Shown here in pieces: positions 1-44,892 of a stretch of 64,000 nucleotides of DNA. The stretch covers positions 62,001-126,000 of the forward strand of contig JAIOPN010000064.1 in assembly GCA_021413865.1 (NCBI GenBank), read 5' to 3'. Position 1 is the stretch's first letter; each line of letters starts with the position of its first letter. A program made the translations under genes and the position numbers. This DNA is from Planctomycetota bacterium (GTDB taxonomy: Bacteria; Planctomycetota; Phycisphaerae; Phycisphaerales; Phycisphaeraceae). The notes beneath the pieces were generated by a model that saw only the letters and a list, made by a program, of their open reading frames with translations, did not search any database and was not told the origin of the DNA.

Positions 1-1128
1 GCGGTTCTGCTTCCACTCAAAATAGCTCACCGTCACGCCGCCCGCGTTGCAGAGCACGGCCGGTAGCACGGGGATGCCCCGGTCCTGCAGGTGCCGCTCG
101 CCCGGCGGGGTCGTCGGGGCGTTGGCGGCCTCGGCGACGACCTTGCAGTCCATGATCTTGGCGCGTTCGAGGTCCACCATCTGCTCGAGTGCCGCGGGGA
201 TGAACACGTCCACCTTCGTGCGGTAGAAGTCGTCCTCGTTGATGGCGTCGGCGCCGGGGAAGCCGGTGACCCCGCCCGTCTTTTCAACGTGGGCCGTCAG
301 CGCGGCCGCGTCGATCCCGCTGTCGCTGCGGATCGCGCCGGTGTGGTCGAGCACGGCCCGCAGCTTCGCCCCGCGCTGGCACAAGAGCCGGCCGGTCCAC
401 GAGCCGACGTTGCCGAAACCGATCAGGCTGATGCTGATGGTCTCGAGCTTCAGGCCCAGTTCGGGAAGGATTTCTTCCAGCACAAAGACCAGCCCCTGGC
501 CCGTCGCCTTGTCACGGCCGACTGAGCCGCCGAACTCCAGCGGCTTGCCGGTCACGACGCTCTGGCCCCGGGCGCTGTGACTGGGCATGCTCATCATCAT
601 GTAGGTGTCGGCCATCCACGCCATGGTCTGCGCGTTGGTCCCCAGGTCCGGCGCGGGGATGTCGTAATCGGGGCCGATGTTGTCGCCCAGCGCGGTCGTG
701 AACCGCCTGGTGAGCCGCATCAGTTCGTCCTGCGAGATCGAGCGGGGATCAACCTGCACGCCCCCCTTGGCGCCGCCCAGCGGGAGGCGCAGCAGCGAGC
801 ACTTCATCGTCATGATCGCCGCGAGCGCCTTGATCTCGTCCAGGTTCACGGAGGCGTGGTAGCGGATGCCCCCTTTGAACGGCCCAAGCAAGTTGTTGTG
901 CTGGACGCGGTAGCCCTTGAAGAGGCGGTAGCGGCCCGAGTCCATCTTCACGGGGAAGTGGACCATGATCTCGTTCTTGGGCTGTGCGAGGATGAGCTGC
1001 AGGTGGTGCGGCAGTTCGAGGAGCGCCGCGGCGTGCAGCACCGAGTTGATGGTCTGCTGATAAACGCTGTTGGGGTCGTAGCGGAAACCCAGCTCTTCGA
1101 GCACGTTGTTGATCAGCACTTCGCTCAT
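1..1128 (-). CDS. gdhA: Glutamate dehydrogenase (Glu/Leu/Phe/Val family), 3' end missing
   Basis: This cytoplasmic enzyme interconverts glutamate with 2-oxoglutarate and ammonia. The first 376 residues lie in the window; the family usually has about 420, so the C-terminus is cut by the window edge. A substrate-binding segment (FKGGIRYH, about residues 84-91) and the catalytic-lysine motif LGGAKGG (about 118-123, Lys near 121) are visible. They are followed by the NAD(P)-binding motif GFGNVGS near residue 220. Start is the ATG at 1128, giving MSEVLINNVLEELGF. It is divergent from the small gene at 1254. Specificity within the family (Glu versus Leu or Phe) is inferred from overall resemblance only. 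Confidence 0.93.
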   Translation of the reverse strand, partial: MSEVLINNVLEELGFRYDPNSVYQQTINSVLHAAALLELPHHLQLILAQPKNEIMVHFPVKMDSGRYRLFKGYRVQHNNLLGPFKGGIRYHASVNLDEIKALAAIMTMKCSLLRLPLGGAKGGVQVDPRSISQDELMRLTRRFTTALGDNIGPDYDIPAPDLGTNAQTMAWMADTYMMMSMPSHSARGQSVVTGKPLEFGGSVGRDKATGQGLVFVLEEILPELGLKLETISISLIGFGNVGSWTGRLLCQRGAKLRAVLDHTGAIRSDSGIDAAALTAHVEKTGGVTGFPGADAINEDDFYRTKVDVFIPAALEQMVDLERAKIMDCKVVAEAANAPTTPPGERHLQDRGIPVLPAVLCNAGGVTVSYFEWKQNR

Positions 1129-1253
1129 GTCGGCCTCGCGTGGGGAACCCGTTCATTATCGGCAGAACGCGGCACGATCCTCGCCAGACACCCGGCCACC
1201 GCCGGATAACCTTGATCCTCCTCGAATCCCACGCCGCCGCTACAATCCGGCGC

Positions 1254-1631
1254 ATGATCACCTACGCCTGCCAGGACCTGATTTTCGCCACCAAAATACG
1301 CTCGACCGCCGAGACGCTCGGCGTGCCCTGCCGCCCCACGCGCGACCCCGCCGCCCTGGGCAACCGCCTCAACCGCGTGGAGGATGGCAAGCTCAACGAG
1401 CCCGTCACCGGCCTCCTGATCGACCTGGAGATGGGCGAGGCCGGCCTCGCCCTGCTCGATCAGATCAAGGCGTTCGATGCGAAGATACCCGTCGTGGCCT
1501 TCGGTGCGCACGTCGCCACCGAGGTGCTCGACGCCGCCCGCGAGCGCGGGGCCGATTTTGTGATGGCACGCGGCATGTTCACCGCCAACCTGCCCGACAT
1601 CCTCAAGCGGTTGGGCGGCGCGGCGGTGTGA
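1254..1631 (+). CDS. Small receiver-like (degenerate CheY-fold) protein
   Basis: This 125-residue protein has no recognised function. The pattern resembles a response-regulator receiver: an Asp at the end of the presumed third strand (LLIDLEMG), a hydrophobic fourth strand (IPVVAFGAH), and GADFVMARGMF where receivers carry the conserved Lys region. The acidic pair normally ending strand 1 is absent (MITYACQDLIF) and the conserved Lys is not in place, so phosphorylation is doubtful. Start is the ATG at 1254; a longer reading from 1140 would run through the promoter space shared with gdhA. Divergent from gdhA and convergent with hom. Fold assignment is an inference from pattern. Confidence 0.7.
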   Translation: MITYACQDLIFATKIRSTAETLGVPCRPTRDPAALGNRLNRVEDGKLNEPVTGLLIDLEMGEAGLALLDQIKAFDAKIPVVAFGAHVATEVLDAARERGADFVMARGMFTANLPDILKRLGGAAV

Positions 1632-1658
1632 TTTTTTGAATGGGTTGGACGGATCGGG

Positions 1659-3011
1659 TCAGCTCTGCGGCATGTCCACGATGCGGATCGCCACCGGCCG
1701 GCCGCCGATCACATCCAGCTTCTCGATGCGGTCCATCGCGGTCATCAGCGCGCCGCGGCGGGCGCGGTGCGTCGTGATGACGACGGGGACCATCTTGCCC
1801 ACGGCCGCCTCGTGCTGGAGGATCGCCGAGATGCTGATCCCCATCTCACCCAGGGCCGTGCTCACCTTGCCCATCACGCCGGGCACGTCCAGGGCATTGA
1901 TGCGGAGGTAGAACCGGCTTTCAAGATCGCCCGGATCGACGAGGTTCACCGGCTCGTGCGAGTCGCACCAGAGGCGCATGCGTGAGAACGCCTGCGGGTA
2001 CCAGCCGGAGGCGACGTTGAGCAGGTCGCTCACTACGGCGCTGGCGGTGGGCATGCGGCCCGCGCCCCGGCCGTAGTACATGGTGTGCCCGTTGGCGTGG
2101 CCGTACACGGAGAGCGCGTTGTAGGAGCCGTTCACCTGCGCCAGGGGCAGCGTCTTGTGAACGAAGCAGGGCTGGACGCGCAGCGATAATTTCGTCGCGC
2201 CGGGCGCGGCCGGGCCGTTCGCCGTGTCGCGGCCGAACCCCTCGCGCTCCGCGATGGCGAGCAGCTTGATCGTGTAGCCCAGCTCGCCGGCAAAGCGGAT
2301 GTCCTGCAGGTCGAGGGTGTCGATGCCCTCGGAGGGCACCTGCCCGTCGGTGACATGCGCGCCGAACGCCAGCGACGCGAGCACCGCCAGCTTCTGCGCC
2401 GCGTCGCGTCCCGAGACGTCCAGCGTCGGGTCGGCCTCGGCGAAACCAAGCTCCTGCGCCTCCTTCAACGCGACGGCATAGGGCTTATCCTTCTGCACCA
2501 TCTCGGTGAGGATGTAGTTGCATGTCCCGTTGAGGATGCCGTAGAGCGCCTCGATCCGGTTGGCCATCAGGCCGAACTGCATTGCTGTGATGATCGGGAT
2601 GCCGCCCCCGCAGGAGGCCTCGAAGGCGATGGAGACGCTGTGCTTTCGCGCCAGGGCGAAGAGCTCGTCCCCCTCGGCGGCGAGCATGGTCTTGTTGGCG
2701 GTGACGATGTGCTTGCCCGAGGTGATCGCCCGGCGGACGTGCCGGCTTACGTCGCGGCCGCCGGCGACCTCGACCACGATCGACATGCCCGGCGTCTCGA
2801 AAAACGCCTCGGCGTCGTTCGTGATGATGGAGCGGTCCACCAGCCCGGAAGCGGCGGCCCTGGCGGCGTCGCGCACCAGCACGCGGCGGAGCTCGAGCCT
2901 CGTCCCGGCGCGGCGGGCATAGACGTCGCTCATCTCGCGCAACAGCGTGGCCACGCCGCCCCCGACGGTGCCGCAGCCGATCATCCCGACGCCGATCACC
3001 GACTCTGCCAC
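1659..3011 (-). CDS. hom: Homoserine dehydrogenase with C-terminal ACT domain
   Basis: Catalyses NAD(P)H-dependent reduction of aspartate semialdehyde to homoserine, on the route to threonine and methionine. The 450-residue reading is normal for the long form. It starts with a nucleotide-binding motif (GMIGCGTVGGGV), has the family signature NGTCNYILTEM in the middle, and ends with an ACT regulatory domain (YLRINALDVPGVMGKVST onward), which suggests amino-acid feedback. Start is inferred as GTG at 3011 with GGAG about 7 bases upstream; longer readings would overlap the divergent Fur gene. An ATG 9 codons in, directly before the glycine motif, is the alternative start. Confidence 0.93.
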   Translation of the reverse strand: MAESVIGVGMIGCGTVGGGVATLLREMSDVYARRAGTRLELRRVLVRDAARAAASGLVDRSIITNDAEAFFETPGMSIVVEVAGGRDVSRHVRRAITSGKHIVTANKTMLAAEGDELFALARKHSVSIAFEASCGGGIPIITAMQFGLMANRIEALYGILNGTCNYILTEMVQKDKPYAVALKEAQELGFAEADPTLDVSGRDAAQKLAVLASLAFGAHVTDGQVPSEGIDTLDLQDIRFAGELGYTIKLLAIAEREGFGRDTANGPAAPGATKLSLRVQPCFVHKTLPLAQVNGSYNALSVYGHANGHTMYYGRGAGRMPTASAVVSDLLNVASGWYPQAFSRMRLWCDSHEPVNLVDPGDLESRFYLRINALDVPGVMGKVSTALGEMGISISAILQHEAAVGKMVPVVITTHRARRGALMTAMDRIEKLDVIGGRPVAIRIVDMPQS

Positions 3012-35576: not shown

Positions 35577-36602
35577 TCACTCTTCCGATATCCGCAGCGC
35601 CTGCCCCTGGAGCGTCTCGTCCACGGTGCGCTGCATCGTCACGTTGTTGGGCAGGTGGATCTTCACCTCGATCAGCGTCTGCTGCGTCGTGTTCCGTCCC
35701 ACCGCCTCGCCGCGCTGCAGGTCGAACATGACCTGTGTGTCCACCGTGCCGCGCACGAGTTTCACGTCCACCTTCGGCCCGCCCGCGGGGGGCAGTTTTG
35801 ATGGATCGACTTCCAGCCTCAGCGTCGCCCTGCCGGTCACCGTCGCCAGCGGGATGCCCTCGACTTCTTCCTCGGAGACGACGGTGTATTTCATCGCCTG
35901 GTAGAGCGTGCCCATCTCGTGGCTCCAGGCGAACGAGGCGTCCCAGCGCGTGCCGATCGCCGCCTGTGCCGGGGCGAGCGCGATCGACGCGAGGTCGGTG
36001 GCGGACTCCATGAAATCAAGGTCCGTCGGCGCGGGGATGTCGTTGCCCAGCCGGCGCTTGATCGCCTCGGCGCCGGTCGCGCTGATGACCGAGCCGTCTG
36101 CGGCCATCTCCACCTTCACCGGCAGGCCCGTGAGCGCCTTGGCCAGGCGGTAGAGCGTCTCGGGATCGCCCGAGGAACGCCGGCTATCGACCGACTTGGT
36201 TTCGCCCTCCGCGCCGGTGAGCGTCACGGTGAGCCAATCGACCGTCATGGTGCACGACGCCGAACCGTCGGACTTCACGTGGTCCACTGTCCAAGTCACC
36301 TCGCTGTTGACCTCCATGCGCGTCGCGGCCGTCCTGCTCTGGCCGTTCAGGCTCATCGACATGTTCTGCTGCCGCAGTGTCCAGCCGGAATACCGCGAGC
36401 GGCGGCCCTCGACCAAGCGGGGGCGGAGATTGATCCCCTCGGTCGCGGCAGGCGCGGGGTCGGCCTTGGGTTTTCCGTCGCCCTTGGCGTCCGCTTCGGC
36501 GCGCAGCGGCACGGTCAGCGCGAGCGCCGCCGCCATGCACGCCAACACCGGCCACCACGCGACACGGACCCGCTGAGTGAGGTGGGGATTCATCACTCTC
36601 AT
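35577..36602 (-). CDS. Exported hypothetical protein (DUF6263-like)
   Basis: A 341-residue protein with an N-terminal signal (VAWWPVLACMAAALALTVPLRAEA) and a beta-rich mature part (EVTWTVDHVKSDGSASCTMTVDWLTVTL, GLPVKVEMAADGSVISATG, IPLATVTGRATLRLEVD). The pattern resembles DUF6263-type exported proteins of planctomycetes; this is from memory. Function is unknown. Start is the ATG at 36602 (after GGGGTGATAAG) or 36593. It lies 19 bases after the 36622-37227 gene on the same strand and is probably co-transcribed with it. Confidence 0.78.
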   Translation of the reverse strand: MRVMNPHLTQRVRVAWWPVLACMAAALALTVPLRAEADAKGDGKPKADPAPAATEGINLRPRLVEGRRSRYSGWTLRQQNMSMSLNGQSRTAATRMEVNSEVTWTVDHVKSDGSASCTMTVDWLTVTLTGAEGETKSVDSRRSSGDPETLYRLAKALTGLPVKVEMAADGSVISATGAEAIKRRLGNDIPAPTDLDFMESATDLASIALAPAQAAIGTRWDASFAWSHEMGTLYQAMKYTVVSEEEVEGIPLATVTGRATLRLEVDPSKLPPAGGPKVDVKLVRGTVDTQVMFDLQRGEAVGRNTTQQTLIEVKIHLPNNVTMQRTVDETLQGQALRISEE

Positions 36603-36621: not shown

Positions 36622-37227
36622 TCACCACAGCAACGCCGGCGACGGCTCGGCGTTCTCGTATCTCAACCACTGCACGTCGGCGACGCGCCACACCCCGTCA
36701 CCGCCCTTCTGCCAGCGGATGCGCCAATGGGTGTGCACGGGGCGATCGCCGTACTCGCTACCGATGAGGGTGCGCACCCCAAACTCGCTCAGCCCCTCGC
36801 CCGCGCCGCGTCCCTCCGCGTCGATGCCGTCAAGCGCGTTGCCGGTGATGTTGAAACGCCGGCTGGTCGAATCGAGGACCTGAAACACGCGATCAAAAGG
36901 GAGCCATGTATTCCCGCGTGGGCCCGAGAGTGTGGCCCCCGGAGTGAAAAAGGCCTTCAGACCCGGCGTGTCGAGCGGCGCGGTGTGCGCGACCAGCAGC
37001 CCCGTGCGCTCGATGAGTTGCTCCCGGGTCGTCTCCACCAGCGACGCAAGGCCCCACACCGCCCCCGCCAGCAGGAACATCGCCAAACCCGCCCACGTCA
37101 CCCGGCGGTTCAACCGGCGCATCCCGTGCCACGCCACGATCAGCCCGAGCAGCACCAACGCCACCACCAGAGGGATCGGGCTCTCCAACAGCAGGTGTGA
37201 CCACCACGGGGGTCCGTTCAGGCTCAT
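36622..37227 (-). CDS. Membrane-anchored hypothetical protein
   Basis: A 201-residue protein with two N-terminal membrane spans (PIPLVVALVLLGLIVAWHGM and VTWAGLAMFLLAGAVWGLASLV) and a soluble C-terminal domain (about 75-201). The latter may have an NTF2-like fold (FDRVFQVLDSTSRRFNITGNALDGIDAEG, then VHTHWRIRWQKGGDGVWRVADVQW). No active site is recognised. Start is the ATG at 37227. Divergent from the glycosylation operon that starts at 37301, and upstream of the exported gene at 35577. Confidence 0.75.
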   Translation of the reverse strand: MSLNGPPWWSHLLLESPIPLVVALVLLGLIVAWHGMRRLNRRVTWAGLAMFLLAGAVWGLASLVETTREQLIERTGLLVAHTAPLDTPGLKAFFTPGATLSGPRGNTWLPFDRVFQVLDSTSRRFNITGNALDGIDAEGRGAGEGLSEFGVRTLIGSEYGDRPVHTHWRIRWQKGGDGVWRVADVQWLRYENAEPSPALLW

Positions 37228-37300: not shown

Positions 37301-39232
37301 ATGCCGCCGGACCCCTCCATACTGCGCGCCAACCTCGCCGCCCTGGCGAAGGTTAACGCCGCGCTCGCCCAGCGGCTGGCAGAGACCACGCCCGCGGAAC
37401 TGGAGTGGTCCGACTCCAAGGCCGGCCCGCTCACCGCCACCCGCCGCCACGAGGGCAAGACCCTGGGCCTCGCCAGCCGGTTCGACCCGCTCACCGAGGC
37501 CAAGGCCATCACCAACTCCGTTGACTTCACCAAGCACGGCGGGGTCGTCGTACTCGGCCTGGCGCTGGGCTACCACGTCACCCACCTCGCGGCCCAGGTG
37601 CCCAACGACGGCCTGTTAATCGTCTATGAACCCGACGCGACCCTCATCCGCGCCGTGCTCGAACGCATCGACCACCGCCGCTGGCTGGGCAGGTCCAACA
37701 TCCACATGGTGGACAGCACCATCGAACGCGGCGACCTGGTGCGGCGCGTCGAGAAGTTCGGCGCGATCATGCTCCAGGGCACGGCCATGGTCACGCACCC
37801 CTGCACGCGCCAGACCCACGGCGCGGCGCTGCAGGCCTTCACCGCCATGTTCGGCGAGGTGATGGCCTACTACCGCACCAACGTCGCCACCACGCTGGTC
37901 AATTCCTCGCGCACCATCGCCAACCTCACCGCCAACCTGGCGTACTACGCCGCCGGCGCGAACACCAACGAGCTGCACAACGCGGCGCGCGGCTTCCCCG
38001 CCGTCTGCGTCGGCGCGGGGCCCAGCCTTGCCCGCAACGTGGACCTGCTCCGCGACCCGGCCGTTCGCGGCAACGTGATCGTCATCACCGCGCAGACCAC
38101 GCTCAAGCCCCTGCTCGACCGCGGCATCCGGCCGGACTTCGTCACCGCCCTGGACTACCACGAGATCTCCAAGCGCTTCTACGAGGGCCTGCCCCGCCTC
38201 GACGACGTCACCCTCGTCGCCGAGCCCAAGGCCAACCCCTCCATCCTCGACAGCTTCCCCGGCCCGATCCGCGTCACCGCCAGCAGCCTGCTCGACCGGC
38301 TGCTGGGCGAGCATGCCGCGCCGATGATCTCCATCCCCAGCGGTGCGACCGTCGCGCACCTCTCCTTCTATCTCGCCCAGCACCTGGGCTGCGACCCGAT
38401 CATCCTCATCGGGCAGGACCTGGGGTTCTCCGACGGCCTCTATTACTGCCCCGGCACCGCGATCCACGACGTATGGGCGCCCGAGCTTGGCGCGTTCAAC
38501 ACCCTCGAGATGCTCGAGTGGCAGCGCATCGTCCGCCACCGCAACCACCTCAAGAAACTCGACGACATCCACGGCCAGCCGATCTACACCGACGAGCAGA
38601 TGCTCACCTACCTCAAGCAGTTCGAGCGCGACTTCTCGCACGCCACGCAGACGATCATCGACGCCACCGAGGGCGGGCTGCCCAAGCAGCACACCACACG
38701 CGTGCCGCTCGCCGAGGCCGTCGCACGGCACGCGACCCGTCCCGTGCCGACGCTGCCTCGCGCCGGGCGCGGCTTTGACGCCGGACGAGTCGATGACGTG
38801 CTCGACGTGATCCGCCAGCGCATCAGGGAGAGCGAGGAGATCCGGTCCCTGGCCCGCAAGACCATCCCGATCCTCCGGCAGATGCGCGAGCACCAGCGCG
38901 ACCGCGAACGGATGGACAAGCTCTTCCACCAGGTGGAACGCAACAAGCGCCGCGTCGATGAGCTGAACACCACCTTCACGCTGCTCAACGAGATCAACGC
39001 CATCGGGTGCTTCAAGCGCGCCCGCACCGACCGGGCGATCCTTAATGACAACGACGCCGACCCCGTGCAGCGCCAGCAGCGGCAGCTCGACCGGGATATC
39101 GAGAATCTGGAGTGGTTGATCCAATCGTGCGACGAGGGCCTGCGCATCTTCACCGCCGCGATCGAGCGCGTGCAGCGGGCTCAGAACGGCGTGAAGCCCG
39201 GGGCGACAGAGAGAGAGACGGTGAAGGTATGA
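37301..39232 (+). CDS. MAF-type motility accessory glycosyltransferase (DUF115)
   Basis: Motility accessory factors transfer nonulosonic acids (pseudaminic or legionaminic acid) onto flagellin in the cytoplasm. The 643-residue protein has the MAF core: CVGAGPSLARNVDLLRDP (GAGPS at 238-242), ITAQTTLKPLLDRGIRPDFV and IGQDLGFSDGLYY (371-379). An N-terminal domain precedes it, and a helical C-terminal region rich in Arg, Glu and Asp follows (about 480-640). Start is the ATG at 37301, which removes a long upstream reading into the divergent gene. Its stop overlaps the next start by four bases (ATGA). Flagellin as the target is inferred. Confidence 0.92.
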   Translation: MPPDPSILRANLAALAKVNAALAQRLAETTPAELEWSDSKAGPLTATRRHEGKTLGLASRFDPLTEAKAITNSVDFTKHGGVVVLGLALGYHVTHLAAQVPNDGLLIVYEPDATLIRAVLERIDHRRWLGRSNIHMVDSTIERGDLVRRVEKFGAIMLQGTAMVTHPCTRQTHGAALQAFTAMFGEVMAYYRTNVATTLVNSSRTIANLTANLAYYAAGANTNELHNAARGFPAVCVGAGPSLARNVDLLRDPAVRGNVIVITAQTTLKPLLDRGIRPDFVTALDYHEISKRFYEGLPRLDDVTLVAEPKANPSILDSFPGPIRVTASSLLDRLLGEHAAPMISIPSGATVAHLSFYLAQHLGCDPIILIGQDLGFSDGLYYCPGTAIHDVWAPELGAFNTLEMLEWQRIVRHRNHLKKLDDIHGQPIYTDEQMLTYLKQFERDFSHATQTIIDATEGGLPKQHTTRVPLAEAVARHATRPVPTLPRAGRGFDAGRVDDVLDVIRQRIRESEEIRSLARKTIPILRQMREHQRDRERMDKLFHQVERNKRRVDELNTTFTLLNEINAIGCFKRARTDRAILNDNDADPVQRQQRQLDRDIENLEWLIQSCDEGLRIFTAAIERVQRAQNGVKPGATERETVKV

Positions 39233-40878
39233 GCGGTGTCGTGGCCATCATCCCGTGTGATATGGAACGCACCCGCCTCGGACTGATCGCGGCATTGGAC
39301 CGTGTCATCGCGGGACGGCCGGCGCTGCACCACACGCTGATGCGCGTCGCCGCCGTACCGCTGGTCGAACGCATCGTGCTGGTCCATCCGGCGAGGCAGG
39401 ATGTGCGAGGCCTCGTGACGGGTACCGCCTTTGCCAAGCCGATCGAGTTCTTTGCCGACCCGGCGGGGCTGCGTGATCCTCACGCCTCCACCACGCTGGC
39501 GGCGCGGGCCTGGGCGCTGCACTCCTGGCGTGGCGGGCTTGGCAACGCGACCTGTTACGACGAACTACTCCCCGCCGCGCCGCTCCACCGGGCCGCCGCC
39601 GCGCACGGGGCCGAAGTTGTATTGCTCGTCGGCGGTGATTGGGTGCTGGTCGATCCGGCGCTCTGCCAGCGCGTGATCGAACGCCACCTCGAAGCGCCTG
39701 AACAGATGCAGATGACCTTCACGCAGGCACCCCCGGGCCTGTGCGGCGTGGCGCTGGGCGCGAACCTGCTCGAACAGCTCGCCCAGACGCCCGGCTCGAC
39801 GATCGGCCAGACCCTCGCCTATGTCCCCAGCCGGCCGCAGGCGGACCCGATCGGCAAGGACGTCTGCGTCCAGGTCTCGGCGCAGGTGCGCTCCTGCGCC
39901 CGCCGCTTCATCGACGACACGCCGCGCAGCCGCATCCTCATCGACGCGCTTGCGGCACGGCTCGGTGACCGTCTTATGGATTCCGACGCCAATGCCATCG
40001 CCGCCGCCGTCAATGAGGTCGAGCACGACCCATCGCACATCCCCGCTGTGCCGCAACAGGTGACGCTCGAACTCACCCCCGAGCGTGCCGTGTCAGGCCC
40101 GATCGTCCCGCAGTTCCACGCGAAGCTCGGCCGCGCCCCGATGGATATCGCCCGCGCCGTCGCCATCATCGAGCAGCTCGGCGCGGCCGGCGACGTCGCC
40201 CTCACGCTTGGTGGACTTGGCGACGCTCTATTGCACCCCGATTTCGACACCCTCATCACCGCCGCGAAAAGAGCGGGCGTGCTGGGCGTCTGCATCGAGA
40301 CCGATCTGCTCGTGGACGAGCCGACGCTTGACCGTTTGCTGCGATCGCCCGTCGATGTCGTCGTGGTCCGCGTTAACGCCGACCGCGAGGCGACTTACAA
40401 AAAGACGATGGGGACCGAGGGCCTCAAGCGCGTCATCGACAACCTGCAATACCTCTACCGCGAGCGTTCCAAGATCGGCGCGACGCTGCCCTGGCTCGTG
40501 CCCAGCATGATCAAAACCGCCGATACGCTGCCGGACATGGAGAGCTTCTATGACCGCTGGGTTCACTACCTGGGTCACGCGGTGGTCGAGGGGGCCAAGA
40601 GCGGCTGCGGCCTGATGCCGGAGATGAGCCCCGTAGCAATGACGCCCCCACGCCGCCGCCCCTGCCGGCAGGTCAACGAGCGTATGACGATTCATTCCGA
40701 CGGCCGCGTCGCACGCTGCGACCAGGACTGGCAGGGCCGCGCCGCCGCCGGCGACACGGCCCGTGCATCGCTCGCGGAAATCTGGTCGTCGATGCAGCAG
40801 GTCCGCACGGCGCACGACCAGGGGCGTGGACAGGAACTGGAACTCTGCGGCGCGTGCACGGAGTGGCACCGGCCGTAA
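39229..40878 (+). CDS. SpsF-like nucleotidyltransferase fused to a cluster-less radical-SAM/SPASM domain
   Basis: A 549-residue fusion. Residues 1 to about 245 resemble SpsF/CMP-sugar synthetase-like nucleotidyltransferases (MSGVVAIIPCDMERTRLGLI, VVLLVGGDWVLVDPALCQRVIERH). Residues about 275-480 follow the radical-SAM barrel layout, including GGLGDALLHPDF (328-339), but the CX3CX2C loop is ELTPERAVSGPIVPQ, without Cys. The SPASM tail is kept: C479, C497 (ARCDQDWQG), C540 and C543 (LCGACTEW). It should therefore hold an auxiliary cluster but not do classic SAM chemistry. Start is the ATG at 39229, overlapping the MAF stop. The role is unknown; context points to glycan modification. Confidence 0.85.
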   Translation: MSGVVAIIPCDMERTRLGLIAALDRVIAGRPALHHTLMRVAAVPLVERIVLVHPARQDVRGLVTGTAFAKPIEFFADPAGLRDPHASTTLAARAWALHSWRGGLGNATCYDELLPAAPLHRAAAAHGAEVVLLVGGDWVLVDPALCQRVIERHLEAPEQMQMTFTQAPPGLCGVALGANLLEQLAQTPGSTIGQTLAYVPSRPQADPIGKDVCVQVSAQVRSCARRFIDDTPRSRILIDALAARLGDRLMDSDANAIAAAVNEVEHDPSHIPAVPQQVTLELTPERAVSGPIVPQFHAKLGRAPMDIARAVAIIEQLGAAGDVALTLGGLGDALLHPDFDTLITAAKRAGVLGVCIETDLLVDEPTLDRLLRSPVDVVVVRVNADREATYKKTMGTEGLKRVIDNLQYLYRERSKIGATLPWLVPSMIKTADTLPDMESFYDRWVHYLGHAVVEGAKSGCGLMPEMSPVAMTPPRRRPCRQVNERMTIHSDGRVARCDQDWQGRAAAGDTARASLAEIWSSMQQVRTAHDQGRGQELELCGACTEWHRP

Positions 40879-40907: not shown

Positions 40908-41624
40908 ATGACCACCCTCGCCGTCATCATCGCCCGCGCCGGGAGCAAGGGGCTCACCAACAAGAACGTGCGCCCGCTGGCGGGCCGTCCGCTGGTGGCG
41001 TGGACCATCGAGCACGCGCAGGGCAGCAAGCGCATCGACGACATCGTGCTCACCTCGGACGGCGAGTCGATCCTCGACGTGGGCCGAGCGTCGGGCGTCC
41101 ATTCCTACAAGCGCCCACCCGATCGTTCGACCGACACGGCGACGATCGACGACGCGGCGCGGCACGGCGTGGAGTGCTGGGAGGCGGAGCACGGCAAGGA
41201 GTGCGACTACGTCGCCATCCTCTACGCCAACGTCGCCCTGCGCCCCCCCGACCTGACCGACCGCGCGGTGACCAAGCTCATCGAGACCGAGGCCGACAGC
41301 GTGCAGACCGTGTACCCGGTGGGCAAGATGCACCCGCTCTGGATGCGGAAACTCAACGGCCCGTTCCAGGACGTGCTCGAGCCTTACCAGCCCAACGAGA
41401 TCTATCGCCGCCAGGACCTGCCGCCGGTGTACATGCTCAACAGCGGCGTGCTCGCCGTGACGCGCAGGAGCCTGTTCAACGTCGACCCCGCGCACCCGCA
41501 CAACTTCCTCGGCGAAGACCGCCGGGCGATCGTCACCCGCGCCGATGACGTGGTCGATATCGACGATGAATTGGACCTGATCATCGCCGAGGCGATCGTG
41601 AAGAAGAGGGCCATGAGCCTGTAG
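40908..41624 (+). CDS. neuA: CMP-nonulosonate (acylneuraminate-type) cytidylyltransferase
   Basis: Activates a nine-carbon sugar acid with CTP for transfer, here presumably for the MAF protein. The 238-residue protein starts MTTLAVIIARAGSKGLTNKN, the CTP-binding pattern of the family (IxARxGSKG), and has LAGRPLVAWTIEHA, ILYANVALRPPDL, YMLNSGVLAVTRR and DDVVDIDDELDL. Legionaminate, pseudaminate or a related acid is possible as substrate. Start is the ATG at 40908, with GGAGGA eight bases upstream. It lies between the fusion protein gene and neuC in one operon. Confidence 0.92.
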   Translation: MTTLAVIIARAGSKGLTNKNVRPLAGRPLVAWTIEHAQGSKRIDDIVLTSDGESILDVGRASGVHSYKRPPDRSTDTATIDDAARHGVECWEAEHGKECDYVAILYANVALRPPDLTDRAVTKLIETEADSVQTVYPVGKMHPLWMRKLNGPFQDVLEPYQPNEIYRRQDLPPVYMLNSGVLAVTRRSLFNVDPAHPHNFLGEDRRAIVTRADDVVDIDDELDLIIAEAIVKKRAMSL

Positions 41625-41675: not shown

Positions 41676-42761
41676 ATGGCCGCCAGCCCCCGCTACATCA
41701 TCGCCGTGACCGGCACCCGTGCGGAGTTGGGGCTCCTCGCGCCGGTCATGCGTGCCATCGACGCGCATCGCCGCTTGCGGCTTGGCGTGGTCGCAACCGG
41801 TACACACCTGACCCGCGGCACGTGGCGGGAAATCCCCTCGATGGGATTCCAGATCGCCGCCAAGGTCCCGATGCAGCGGCGAGGCGGCACCGGCCGTGCG
41901 GCCGACGTGGCGGCGCTGGGGCGCGGGATTACGGGGCTTGGCGCGGCGTTCGACAAACTCAAACCCGACGCCGTGCTCGTGCTGGGTGATCGGGTCGAGG
42001 TGCTCGCGGCGGCCTGCGCGGCGGCGGTGGGCGGGTATCGGTTGGCGCATATCCACGGCGGGGATCGGGCCGAGGGCATCGCGGATGAGTCGATGCGGCA
42101 CGCGGTGAGTAAGTTGGCGCACCTTCATTTTACGGCCAGTGCCCTAAGCCGTGAGCGGCTGATCCGGATGGGGGAGAACCCGAAACGGGTGTTCAACACC
42201 GGTTCGCCCGCGATCGACGGGTTGCAGGAGATTCAACCGTACATGGATGCTGATGGGCCGGGCGTTGTCGTGATGCAGCACCCGATCGGCGCGGCGGATT
42301 CGGCTGAAGAACGCTGGATGAAACAGACCCTCGCCGCGGTGGGCGAGGCCTACCTGTTCGCTCCCAATAGCGATCCGGGCAGCGCAGGCATCCGCCGGGC
42401 GCTACGGCCCTATCGCTGCACGGTCATCGAACACCTGCCACGCGGGGATTTTCTCCGGCTGCTGGCCGGCGCACGCGCGATTGTGGGGAACTCCTCGGCG
42501 GGGCTGATCGAGGCGGCGGGGCTGCGCGTGCCGTGTGTAAACATTGGGCCACGCCAGGGCGGGCGGGAAAAACCCAGCAACGTCATTGATTGCGGGTACG
42601 GCGAAACAAATGTCCGCCTCGCACTGGCCCGCGCGCTCAAAATGGACCGCCGCCGCATCCGCCACCCCTACGGCGACGGCCGGACGGGCCCGCGGATCGC
42701 CCAGATTCTCGCGACGATTGACCTGACCGCCATCTCCACCCGCAAGCAAAACGCGTACTGA
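41676..42761 (+). CDS. neuC: UDP-N-acetylglucosamine 2-epimerase (hydrolysing, NeuC type)
   Basis: Predicted to form N-acetylmannosamine (or a diamino analogue in legionaminate synthesis) and UDP. The 361-residue protein has ITGTRAELG-like ends (IAVTGTRAELGLLAPVMRAI), VLGDRVEVLAAACAA, LAHIHGGDRAEGIADESMRHAVSKLAHLHFTAS and VGNSSAGLIEAAGLRVPCVNIG, all in the family order. A NeuB synthase, the next step, is not present in the window. Start is the ATG at 41676. Last gene of the glycosylation operon; the P-type ATPase follows after 112 bases. Confidence 0.92.
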   Translation: MAASPRYIIAVTGTRAELGLLAPVMRAIDAHRRLRLGVVATGTHLTRGTWREIPSMGFQIAAKVPMQRRGGTGRAADVAALGRGITGLGAAFDKLKPDAVLVLGDRVEVLAAACAAAVGGYRLAHIHGGDRAEGIADESMRHAVSKLAHLHFTASALSRERLIRMGENPKRVFNTGSPAIDGLQEIQPYMDADGPGVVVMQHPIGAADSAEERWMKQTLAAVGEAYLFAPNSDPGSAGIRRALRPYRCTVIEHLPRGDFLRLLAGARAIVGNSSAGLIEAAGLRVPCVNIGPRQGGREKPSNVIDCGYGETNVRLALARALKMDRRRIRHPYGDGRTGPRIAQILATIDLTAISTRKQNAY

Positions 42762-42873
42762 GCCGTGAAGCCCCGGCGTCGGGTCGCCGCGCTCGGCTAT
42801 AGTGCCCGAACCTGTGCCGGGCCGGGGCGTATGGTCTATCATCATTGAACGCTTGCACGCAGGGAAAATGACT

Positions 42874-44892
42874 ATGGCGCACGACTATGTGAAGGAGGCC
42901 GTCGAGGTCGAGGCAGAAACCGGCCGCGTGAGCTTCCAGATCCTGGCGACGCTGGTCGGCGGCGTGCTGCTCGTCTGCTCGCTCGTCGCCGAGTTCTCGT
43001 TCGACAACCCCGATTACGCGACCGCGCTGGCGATGCTCTCGGCTGTCCTGCTGGGTGTGCCGCTGGTGTGGGTCGCGATCAAGGACCTGTACGAAGGCCA
43101 CACGCACATGAACGAGCTAGTGGCGCTGGCGGTGCTCGCCTCTTTTGCGATCGGCAAATACCAGGAATCCGCCGCGATCGCGTTCTTCATGATCATCGCG
43201 GTGCTGATCGAGAACCGCACGGCCCTGGGCGCTCAGGCGAGCATCGAGTCGCTGGTGCGCATCACGCCGACCCGCGCGCACCGTGTCAGGGACGGCGCGG
43301 AGACCGAGGTCGAGGCCAAGGACCTGATGCCGGGCGACATTGTCCGCGTGCGCCCCGGGGACAACATCCCCGCCGACGGCAAAGTCGCACGCGGGACCAG
43401 CACGGTGAACCAGGCGAACATCACCGGCGAATCGCTGCCGGTGGACAAGAACGAGGGCGACGAGGTGTTCGGCGGGACGATTAACGTCACCGGCGCGATG
43501 GACATCCAGGTAACCAAGGCGGGCAGCGACACGACGCTGGGCAAGGTGAAGGAGTTGATCCTTCAGGCCGAACGGACACGCATCCCGATCATGCGGATGA
43601 TCGACCGCTACGCCGGCTGGTACACGCCGACGGTGCTGATGCTGGTGGGCATCGTGCTGTTTTTCACGATGAAACTGGGGCTGGAGAACCCGTGGGAGCG
43701 CGCGATCACCATGCTGGTGCTTGCTTGCCCCTGCGCGTTGATCCTGGCGACGCCGACGGCGATGGTGGCCGGGCTGTCGGCCGCGGCGCGGCTGGGCGTG
43801 CTGGTCAAGAGCGTGCTCGACCTCGAGGCGGCGCGCAACCTCACCGCCATCGTGTTCGACAAGACCGGCACGCTGACCACGGGGCAGTTGCAGGTCCGGC
43901 GTCTGTCGCCGGTCGCCGACGCGGTGGACAGCATCGAGTTCGTCCGCGTCGCCGCCAGCGCCGAGCAGCACAGCAAGCACCCGGTGGCCCGGGCGGTGGT
44001 GGACGTCGCGCGCAAGGCGCGGGTGACGATCACCGAACCGACGGCGTTTGAAGAGGTGTCGGGGCGCGGCGTGAGGGCGACGATCGACGGCCGCTCGGTC
44101 GCGGTCGGGCGTGCGAAGTGGCTGATCGAATCGGGCGGTCTCGACACGGCGACCTCCGCGGTGGTGAGCGAGGTCCAATCAAGCCCGGACGCCGAGGGGT
44201 TGAGCGTGCTGTTCGTCGTGCGTGACGGCCGGCTGCTGGGGTGGATCGGCCTGGAGGACGCGACGCGGCCCGAGGCGGCGGCGGCGATGGACCGGCTGCG
44301 CGAGCAGGGGCTCAAGCGGCTCATCATCGTGACGGGCGACCGCGAGAGCGTCGCCAAGCGTGTTGCCGCCGAGATGCACACCGATTACAAGGCCGAGGTC
44401 CTCCCGCACGAAAAACTCGAGATCGTCGATGAGCTCAAGGCCCGCGGCCACAAGGTCGCGGTGATCGGCGACGGCGTGAACGACGCCCCCGCGCTGGCGG
44501 CGGGCGACATCTCCATCGCCATGGGCGCCGCCGGCTCCGACGTCGCCATCCACTCGGCCTCCATCGCCCTGATGAACAACAACCTCAACCGCATCCCCTT
44601 CCTGGTGGACCTGTCGCGTCAGACCGGCGCGGTGATCCGCCAGAACCTGGTGTTCGGCATCTCCTTTGTGCTCATCTTCGGCACGCTGGCCGCGATGAAC
44701 ATGCTCGGCGGCGCCAACGGCCCGATCATCGCGGCCGTGCTGCACGTGGTCAGCAGCCTGATCGTCGTGTTCAACTCCGCGCGGCTGGTGCGGGCGGGCG
44801 AAGACATCGAGATGGCGGAGGCCTCGGCGGGGCAGAAACGCGAGCGGCGTCCGGCCGCGGTTGCGCCGTCACCGATGCCGGCGACGGCGTGA
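42874..44892 (+). CDS. Metal-transporting P1B-type ATPase
   Basis: A heavy-metal pump of the inner membrane, 672 residues. Membrane helices flank TGES (184-187), the metal-passage motif CPC (LACPCALIL, 285-287), the phosphorylated Asp in DKTGT (D329), the SKHPVARAVV nucleotide-binding motif and GDGVNDAPALA. No N-terminal heavy-metal-binding domain is present. The last helices read IAAVLHVVSSLIVVFN, which matches neither the copper nor the zinc consensus exactly, so the metal is not assigned. Start is the ATG at 42874 (AGGGAAAA nine bases before); an ATG two codons earlier is possible. Confidence 0.93.
   Translation: MAHDYVKEAVEVEAETGRVSFQILATLVGGVLLVCSLVAEFSFDNPDYATALAMLSAVLLGVPLVWVAIKDLYEGHTHMNELVALAVLASFAIGKYQESAAIAFFMIIAVLIENRTALGAQASIESLVRITPTRAHRVRDGAETEVEAKDLMPGDIVRVRPGDNIPADGKVARGTSTVNQANITGESLPVDKNEGDEVFGGTINVTGAMDIQVTKAGSDTTLGKVKELILQAERTRIPIMRMIDRYAGWYTPTVLMLVGIVLFFTMKLGLENPWERAITMLVLACPCALILATPTAMVAGLSAAARLGVLVKSVLDLEAARNLTAIVFDKTGTLTTGQLQVRRLSPVADAVDSIEFVRVAASAEQHSKHPVARAVVDVARKARVTITEPTAFEEVSGRGVRATIDGRSVAVGRAKWLIESGGLDTATSAVVSEVQSSPDAEGLSVLFVVRDGRLLGWIGLEDATRPEAAAAMDRLREQGLKRLIIVTGDRESVAKRVAAEMHTDYKAEVLPHEKLEIVDELKARGHKVAVIGDGVNDAPALAAGDISIAMGAAGSDVAIHSASIALMNNNLNRIPFLVDLSRQTGAVIRQNLVFGISFVLIFGTLAAMNMLGGANGPIIAAVLHVVSSLIVVFNSARLVRAGEDIEMAEASAGQKRERRPAAVAPSPMPATA

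Follow-up and report, generated by a model that had tools for sequence, protein, structure and literature searches.

A planctomycete protein with a cytidylyltransferase-like domain and a radical-SAM/SPASM fold without SAM-cluster cysteines: a candidate partner of the MAF flagellin glycosyltransferase

The window analyzed here is a stretch of 64,000 nucleotides from the 4.4 Mb genome (G000) of a Planctomycetota bacterium of the Phycisphaerae (contig JAIOPN010000064.1, positions 62,001 to 126,000). A gene in this window encodes a protein of 549 amino acids in which a cytidylyltransferase-like domain is followed by a radical S-adenosylmethionine (SAM) barrel and a twitch/SPASM domain. The cysteines that would bind the SAM-cleaving cluster are missing from the barrel, both here and in every homologue collected. 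The gene is coupled to that of a MAF flagellin glycosyltransferase, and we favor the view that the protein works with MAF as its non-catalytic partner when flagellin is glycosylated with nonulosonic acid. The gene and its parts are as follows.

39229..40878, plus strand: the 549-residue protein, with a cytidylyltransferase-like domain, a radical-SAM barrel lacking the cluster cysteines and a twitch/SPASM domain (Pfam, AlphaFold2, Foldseek)
39229..40023, plus strand: cytidylyltransferase-like N-terminal domain, approximately residues 1-265 (Foldseek, profile match)
40054..40638, plus strand: radical-SAM-like barrel without CX3CX2C, approximately residues 276-470 (Pfam, BtrN alignment, AlphaFold2/Foldseek)
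40069..40119, plus strand: loop ELTPERAVSGPIVPQFH, residues 281-297, at the site of the CX3CX2C loop of true radical SAM enzymes (alignments)
40663..40857, plus strand: twitch/SPASM domain with Cys479, Cys497, Cys540 and Cys543 (Pfam, BtrN alignment)

The first-pass annotation of this DNA had described a radical-SAM barrel that keeps its GGLGDALLHPDF block and four SPASM-type cysteines (479, 497, 540 and 543) and has no cysteine where CX3CX2C should be. The protein indeed has all of these features. In the profile alignment, the CX3CX2C motif of BtrN (CNRTCWYC) falls without gaps on ELTPERAVSGPIVPQ (RAVSGPIV). The CNLxCxMCP motif of 15 cysteine-bearing radical-SAM/SPASM proteins from the same phylum falls on RxxxGPITP. 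The three cysteine positions thus correspond to R286, G290 and V293 (codons CGT, GGC and GTC), and no cysteine lies between residues 223 and 355. Across 76 distinct homologues, a cysteine never occurs at any of the three positions, which hold R-G-T/V in the group of the window protein and unrelated residues in other groups. No conserved cysteine was found elsewhere in the barrel among the family sequences. A frameshift or a misread register, already discounted in the first-pass annotation, is ruled out by the frame (open from ATG to TAA with no internal stop codon), by the ungapped alignment and by the same absence in all 76 homologues. A displaced motif in an otherwise ordinary radical SAM enzyme was also considered. 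Two homologues (L020 and L023) contain a CX3CX2C string, not individually located in either; it is not the barrel motif, since their three barrel positions have no cysteine.

The loop that replaces the motif is itself conserved. In Phycisphaeraceae-type members it forms a new motif, ELTPRRxxxGPITPQHH (consensus ELTPrRxvxGPItPQHh), at the 96th percentile of conservation, a value slightly inflated because R286 and G290 (two of the 17 loop columns) served to select those members. The rest of the phylum has another sequence at this site, likewise without cysteine. When the loop and the SPASM cysteine columns are left out of the tree, one branch (Shimodaira-Hasegawa approximate likelihood ratio test, 99) divides all proteins lacking the motif from all those bearing it, which is consistent with a single loss of the radical-SAM cysteines.

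Two cysteine-bearing relatives were noted. L062 (genome G088, 685-2379, plus strand, 565 residues) is a radical-SAM/SPASM protein with an intact CX3CX2C at residue 287. It was rejected as a cysteine-bearing, nucleotidyltransferase-fused ancestor within the phylum, as its N-terminus differs from the nucleotidyltransferase described here. Its barrel is joined to an unrelated domain, WbqC-like by eye, so that this type of barrel occurs in a further fusion as well. The gene of L145 (plasmid CP026658.1) lies directly 5' of genes for perosamine synthetase and asparagine synthase, neighbors that point to sugar modification by active members. Plasmid matches covered only the radical-SAM half of the protein.

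Profile searches and structure prediction, both proposed with the first-pass annotation, bear out the fold. Two Pfam families score above their gathering thresholds: SPASM (PF13186) on residues 479-544 with 37.7 bits (threshold 21.5) and Radical_SAM (PF04055) on residues 304-415 with 30.9 bits (threshold 29.5). The latter match begins only at profile position 27, beyond the cysteine part of the profile. The top match of the family profile among sequences of the Protein Data Bank (PDB) is BtrN (E values of 2e-13 and 5e-13), aligned over both barrel and twitch; for the N-terminus, cytidylyltransferase 6oew and KdsB rank after it. AlphaFold2, run with 38 sequences, gave a model with a mean predicted local distance difference test score (pLDDT) of 93.6 and a predicted TM-score of 0.93. 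This model has the partial TIM-barrel fold of the radical SAM superfamily, whose absence the first-pass annotation had named as refuting. A Foldseek search with it returned BtrN first (TMt 0.73), followed by DesII, SuiB and SkfB, while the first domain matched 6oew (TMt 0.62-0.65) and also IspD. The profile and fold matches place two enzyme folds in one chain, a cytidylyltransferase and then a radical-SAM barrel with twitch. The SpsF-like label given earlier to the first domain holds for its fold but is weak at the level of sequence. Pfam matches of the N-terminus to MobA and CTP transferases are weak, and CTP_transf_3, whose cut-off is 22.6 bits, reaches 12.9.

The gene sits in the MAF/NeuA/NeuC operon that the first-pass annotation had described, with these neighbors.

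37301..39232, plus strand: MAF flagellin glycosyltransferase (MptE-like PF01973, 125 bits; Maf_flag10_N, 29 bits)
40908..41624, plus strand: NeuA/cytidine monophosphate (CMP)-nonulosonate synthetase (CTP_transf_3, 58 bits; ARAGSKGLxxKN signature intact)
41676..42761, plus strand: NeuC/UDP-GlcNAc 2-epimerase (Epimerase_2, 224 bits)

The MAF gene probably starts at the ATG at 37301; the mechanical open reading frame begins at 36932. Its stop overlaps the start of the 549-residue gene in the sequence ATGA (39229-39232), in line with the translational coupling proposed before. The conserved gene order is MAF, the 549-residue gene, NeuA, (NeuB) and NeuC. NeuB is found elsewhere in the genome of the window (C32), and in or beside the operon in many relatives. 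Several NeuA-matching frames of 580-680 residues (L022, L024, L073, L078, L082 and L106) include a NeuB domain, so that CMP-nonulosonate synthetase and nonulosonate synthase appear to be fused in several Phycisphaerae.

Homologues, whose collection had also been proposed, show both the shared cysteine loss and a strong linkage to the genes for MAF and nonulosonate synthesis. A single scan of genomes with the alignment of the family yielded 51 loci. MAF lies directly upstream in 30 of these and is fused to the protein in 19, so that it is adjacent or fused in 49/51; the two loci without MAF (L126 and L131) begin at a contig edge. Downstream, 44 loci have NeuA and 42 have NeuC. Carriers with complete genomes include Planctomycetales bacterium ZRK34 (CP050848, locus L106) and strain syqfu (CP087563, locus L117). 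Among 61 relatives, 59 either have both MAF and the 549-residue type of gene or lack both (Fisher p 6e-9, a guide only). One exception, G036, has a MAF gene cut by the contig end where the other gene would come next, and in the other, G055, MAF is eroded. In a draw of 199 genomes across the phylum, all 19 genomes with the gene above threshold also carry MAF; MAF occurs also without it.

The fusion to MAF arose at least twice, independently, according to the tree. A second fusion, L183 (genome G234, 1174 residues), retains all four twitch cysteines. In the tree it is remote from the main fused clade and sister to a separate gene, L184, of the same genome, and a single fused clade is rejected by the approximately unbiased test (p 3e-36). 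Genome G234 holds both a MAF fusion and, next to a MAF of its own, the separate gene L184. Two further candidates (L034 and L108) were set aside, being long overlapping open frames instead of fusions. The planctomycete MAF fusion operon also occurs in records titled Vicinamibacteraceae (L127) and Verrucomicrobiia (L143). In the tree, L127 adjoins a planctomycete sequence, and the two are either mis-binned contigs or cases of gene transfer.

Other genes flank the operon. Divergent from MAF on the minus strand are genes for a 201-residue protein with a weak O-antigen-ligase match (36622-37227) and for a DUF6263 protein (35577-36602). In most Phycisphaerae loci both are likewise neighbors of the MAF operon, and the first also adjoins the operon in genomes with the MAF fusion. 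A heavy-metal P-type ATPase gene (42802-44892, plus strand) lies 3' of the operon here and in several relatives.

Flagellin (PF00669) is encoded in 54 of the 61 relatives. Its absence goes with absence of the 549-residue type of gene, both in all relatives (Fisher p 0.0008) and in genomes at least 90% complete (p 0.002). Transfer of nonulosonate to flagellin by MAF takes place in the cytoplasm, and Maf1 contacts flagellin directly, ahead of chaperone binding and export (PMC4065374). The specificity of another flagellin glycosyltransferase, FlmG, derives from its own attached flagellin-binding domain (PMC7591256).

Computation shows the absence of the cysteines, the predicted fold, a conserved operon, co-occurrence with MAF, two independent fusions and the loss of iron-sulfur ligands in the main fused lineage (described below). 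From these we infer that the protein most likely forms a complex with MAF, binds flagellin or the sugar donor, does not catalyze a reaction and uses its cluster structurally. The ancestor would have been a cytidylyltransferase-like domain fused to a radical-SAM/SPASM (twitch) enzyme. The SAM-cleaving cluster and most of the nucleotide signature of the first domain would have been lost before the sampled Planctomycetota lineages split, and the protein would have been retained as a non-catalytic partner of the transferase. MAF is expected to pass CMP-nonulosonic acid, the product of NeuC, NeuB and NeuA, to flagellin in the cytoplasm. The 549-residue protein would bind MAF and present or position either the flagellin acceptor or the CMP-sugar donor, a role for planctomycete MAF comparable to that of the flagellin-binding domain of FlmG. 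The [4Fe-4S] site, where kept, would act as structural glue. A triple mutant of BtrN (C16A/C20A/C23A) retains its auxiliary [4Fe-4S] cluster (PMC9012708), so that a protein of the window type could plausibly hold an auxiliary cluster as well. In the order we propose, the radical-SAM cluster was lost first and the auxiliary cluster may have become dispensable later in some lineages; in the main fused lineage this would have gone along with the covalent joining to MAF. We consider the general role as a non-catalytic partner somewhat more probable than all its competitors taken together. A stronger version, held tentatively and put a little short of an even chance, is that a pseudo-nucleotidyltransferase and a pseudo-radical-SAM module make up an obligate subunit of the flagellin glycosyltransferase, the fold being recycled for recognition and its iron-sulfur glue later dispensed with in the MAF-fused lineage.

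Several observations weigh against a non-catalytic partner of MAF that acts on flagellin. Distant members in G029, G122 and G221 are not adjacent to MAF. The genomes compared are related, and the p values for co-occurrence therefore suggest more independence than there is. Two genomes that lack flagellin, G043 and G055, retain the pseudo-radical-SAM module in fused proteins whose MAF part is mostly eroded (L185 and L186, in which the module scores 443 and 423 bits, respectively); this pattern speaks against a purely flagellar role in those genomes. Residues of the Mg-binding type, D137 and D230, are retained in the lineage of the window, which leaves room for nucleotide binding or activity.

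This last point bears on the strongest alternative, which we regard as unlikely but worth weighing: that the protein is still an enzyme, its N-terminal domain being an unusual but active nucleotidyltransferase (such as a second synthetase of CMP- or NDP-sugars for the glycan) whose substrate is only bound or shaped by barrel and twitch. The residues WRGG (100-103), D142, R226 and D230 are invariant across 22 aligned N-terminal domains. The first Mg-type aspartate is retained in most Phycisphaerae, and two models, those of the window protein and of the fused form L119, match 6oew. However, the ARxGSxRLPxK signature has given way to other residues (R to D/E, R to G and K to R), and its nucleotide loop shows little conservation (28th percentile). 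The gene adjoins that of a canonical NeuA whose signature is intact, and in the distant pair L183 and L184 the WRGG motif is lost too. The fold may still bind a nucleotide or a sugar, but the usual catalysis of this domain has probably been lost. With most of the nucleotide-binding signature gone from the CMP-sugar-synthetase-like domain, the new enzymatic step suggested in the first-pass annotation is less likely than a non-catalytic partner.

A second alternative, for which we see a small chance, is an iron-sulfur electron carrier, or a sensor of oxygen or iron, that gates flagellin glycosylation. The cysteines of the twitch domain are spaced 18/43/3, compared with 18/45/3 in BtrN, and coincide with a PF13186 match above its cut-off. 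All four are kept in 41 separate proteins (from 76 sequences). However, 6-7 separate proteins are without the first twitch cysteine (C479), and the whole SPASM cysteine set is gone from all true MAF fusions of the main clade. The number of auxiliary-cluster cysteines thus drops from four to three to none among orthologues with an unchanged operon and predicted fold. In the fused form L119, which has lost the set, the model has a pLDDT of 86.5 and matches BtrN (TMt 0.67) and 6oew (TMt 0.61). No gene for a redox partner was seen in the operon. Because orthologues lose these cysteines yet keep operon and predicted fold, the electron-carrier role raised in the first-pass annotation is disfavored. 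Judged by this comparison of sequences, the twitch ligands are inessential to the family.

A radical SAM enzyme with non-cysteine ligands, or with its cluster elsewhere, that performs radical chemistry on a sugar is very improbable: BtrN and DesII, the closest folds, do use sugars or sugar-like substrates, and the barrel and GGxGD block are retained, but the three cysteine positions are filled as described above and no other barrel cysteine is conserved. Equally improbable is a decaying, functionless remnant carried in the operon, for although metal ligands are lost stepwise in some lineages, frames are uninterrupted in nearly all genomes searched, the nearest relatives share 56-57% identity, the new loop is strongly conserved and MAF was fused on two independent occasions.

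Proteins of this kind have been named before; the MAF-linked branch in planctomycetes is a new form of them. The nearest named family is spiro-SPASM (TIGR04321), similar in length and in the order of its parts. Residues 125-547 of the window protein cover positions 86-506 of the 510 in its profile, with 123.4 bits where the cut-off is 250; in the phylum draw the best score is approximately 158 bits, so that none of its genomes reaches the cut-off. Addition of a cysteine at each of the three positions raises the TIGR04321 score by 1.6, 4.2 and 2.3 bits, compared with 6-7 bits each in the model of a true radical SAM protein, the tungsten-cofactor maturase. Removal of the SPASM cysteines costs 25 bits in TIGR04321. 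Such probing of the model suggests that spiro-SPASM proteins may keep the radical-SAM cysteines only in part. The genome scan returned no spirochaete loci. A precedent by title only is TIGR04347 ("pseudo-SAM/SPASM"), a SPASM protein on a radical-SAM-like fold. It matches the homologue L041 weakly (29 bits, cut-off 525) and does not match the window protein at an E value of 0.001.

Among characterized proteins, the best sequence and fold match to barrel plus twitch is BtrN (PDB IDs: 4m7s and 4m7t), a twitch-domain radical SAM dehydrogenase that acts on 2-deoxy-scyllo-inosamine. All three of its cysteines (C16, C20 and C23) are replaced in the window protein, which, unlike BtrN, has a cytidylyltransferase-like domain before the barrel. 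The SpsF/KdsB-type cytidylyltransferases (PF02348; PDB IDs: 6oew and 1gq9) share their fold with residues 1-265, with a weak profile match below the Pfam cut-off and a replaced nucleotide-binding signature. FlmG is a modular flagellin O-glycosyltransferase in which a flagellin-specificity domain is joined to a nonulosonate glycosyltransferase. It belongs to another transferase class, and the likeness to the window protein lies in the proposed role only. We found no paper tying a radical-SAM-fold protein to flagellin glycosylation in the literature searched, which left most subscription journals outside.

Degenerate radical SAM proteins have scarcely been studied. This family looks like a graded natural series, in which the catalytic cluster is absent throughout the sampled members and the auxiliary cluster is kept in most, while some members are down to three of the four auxiliary ligands and those of the main MAF-fused lineage to none. 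The series opens the question of what use an auxiliary cluster has without radical chemistry, and of how MAF transferases select the flagellin acceptor or the sugar donor. Recognition of the family would also keep its genes from being labeled as radical SAM enzymes.

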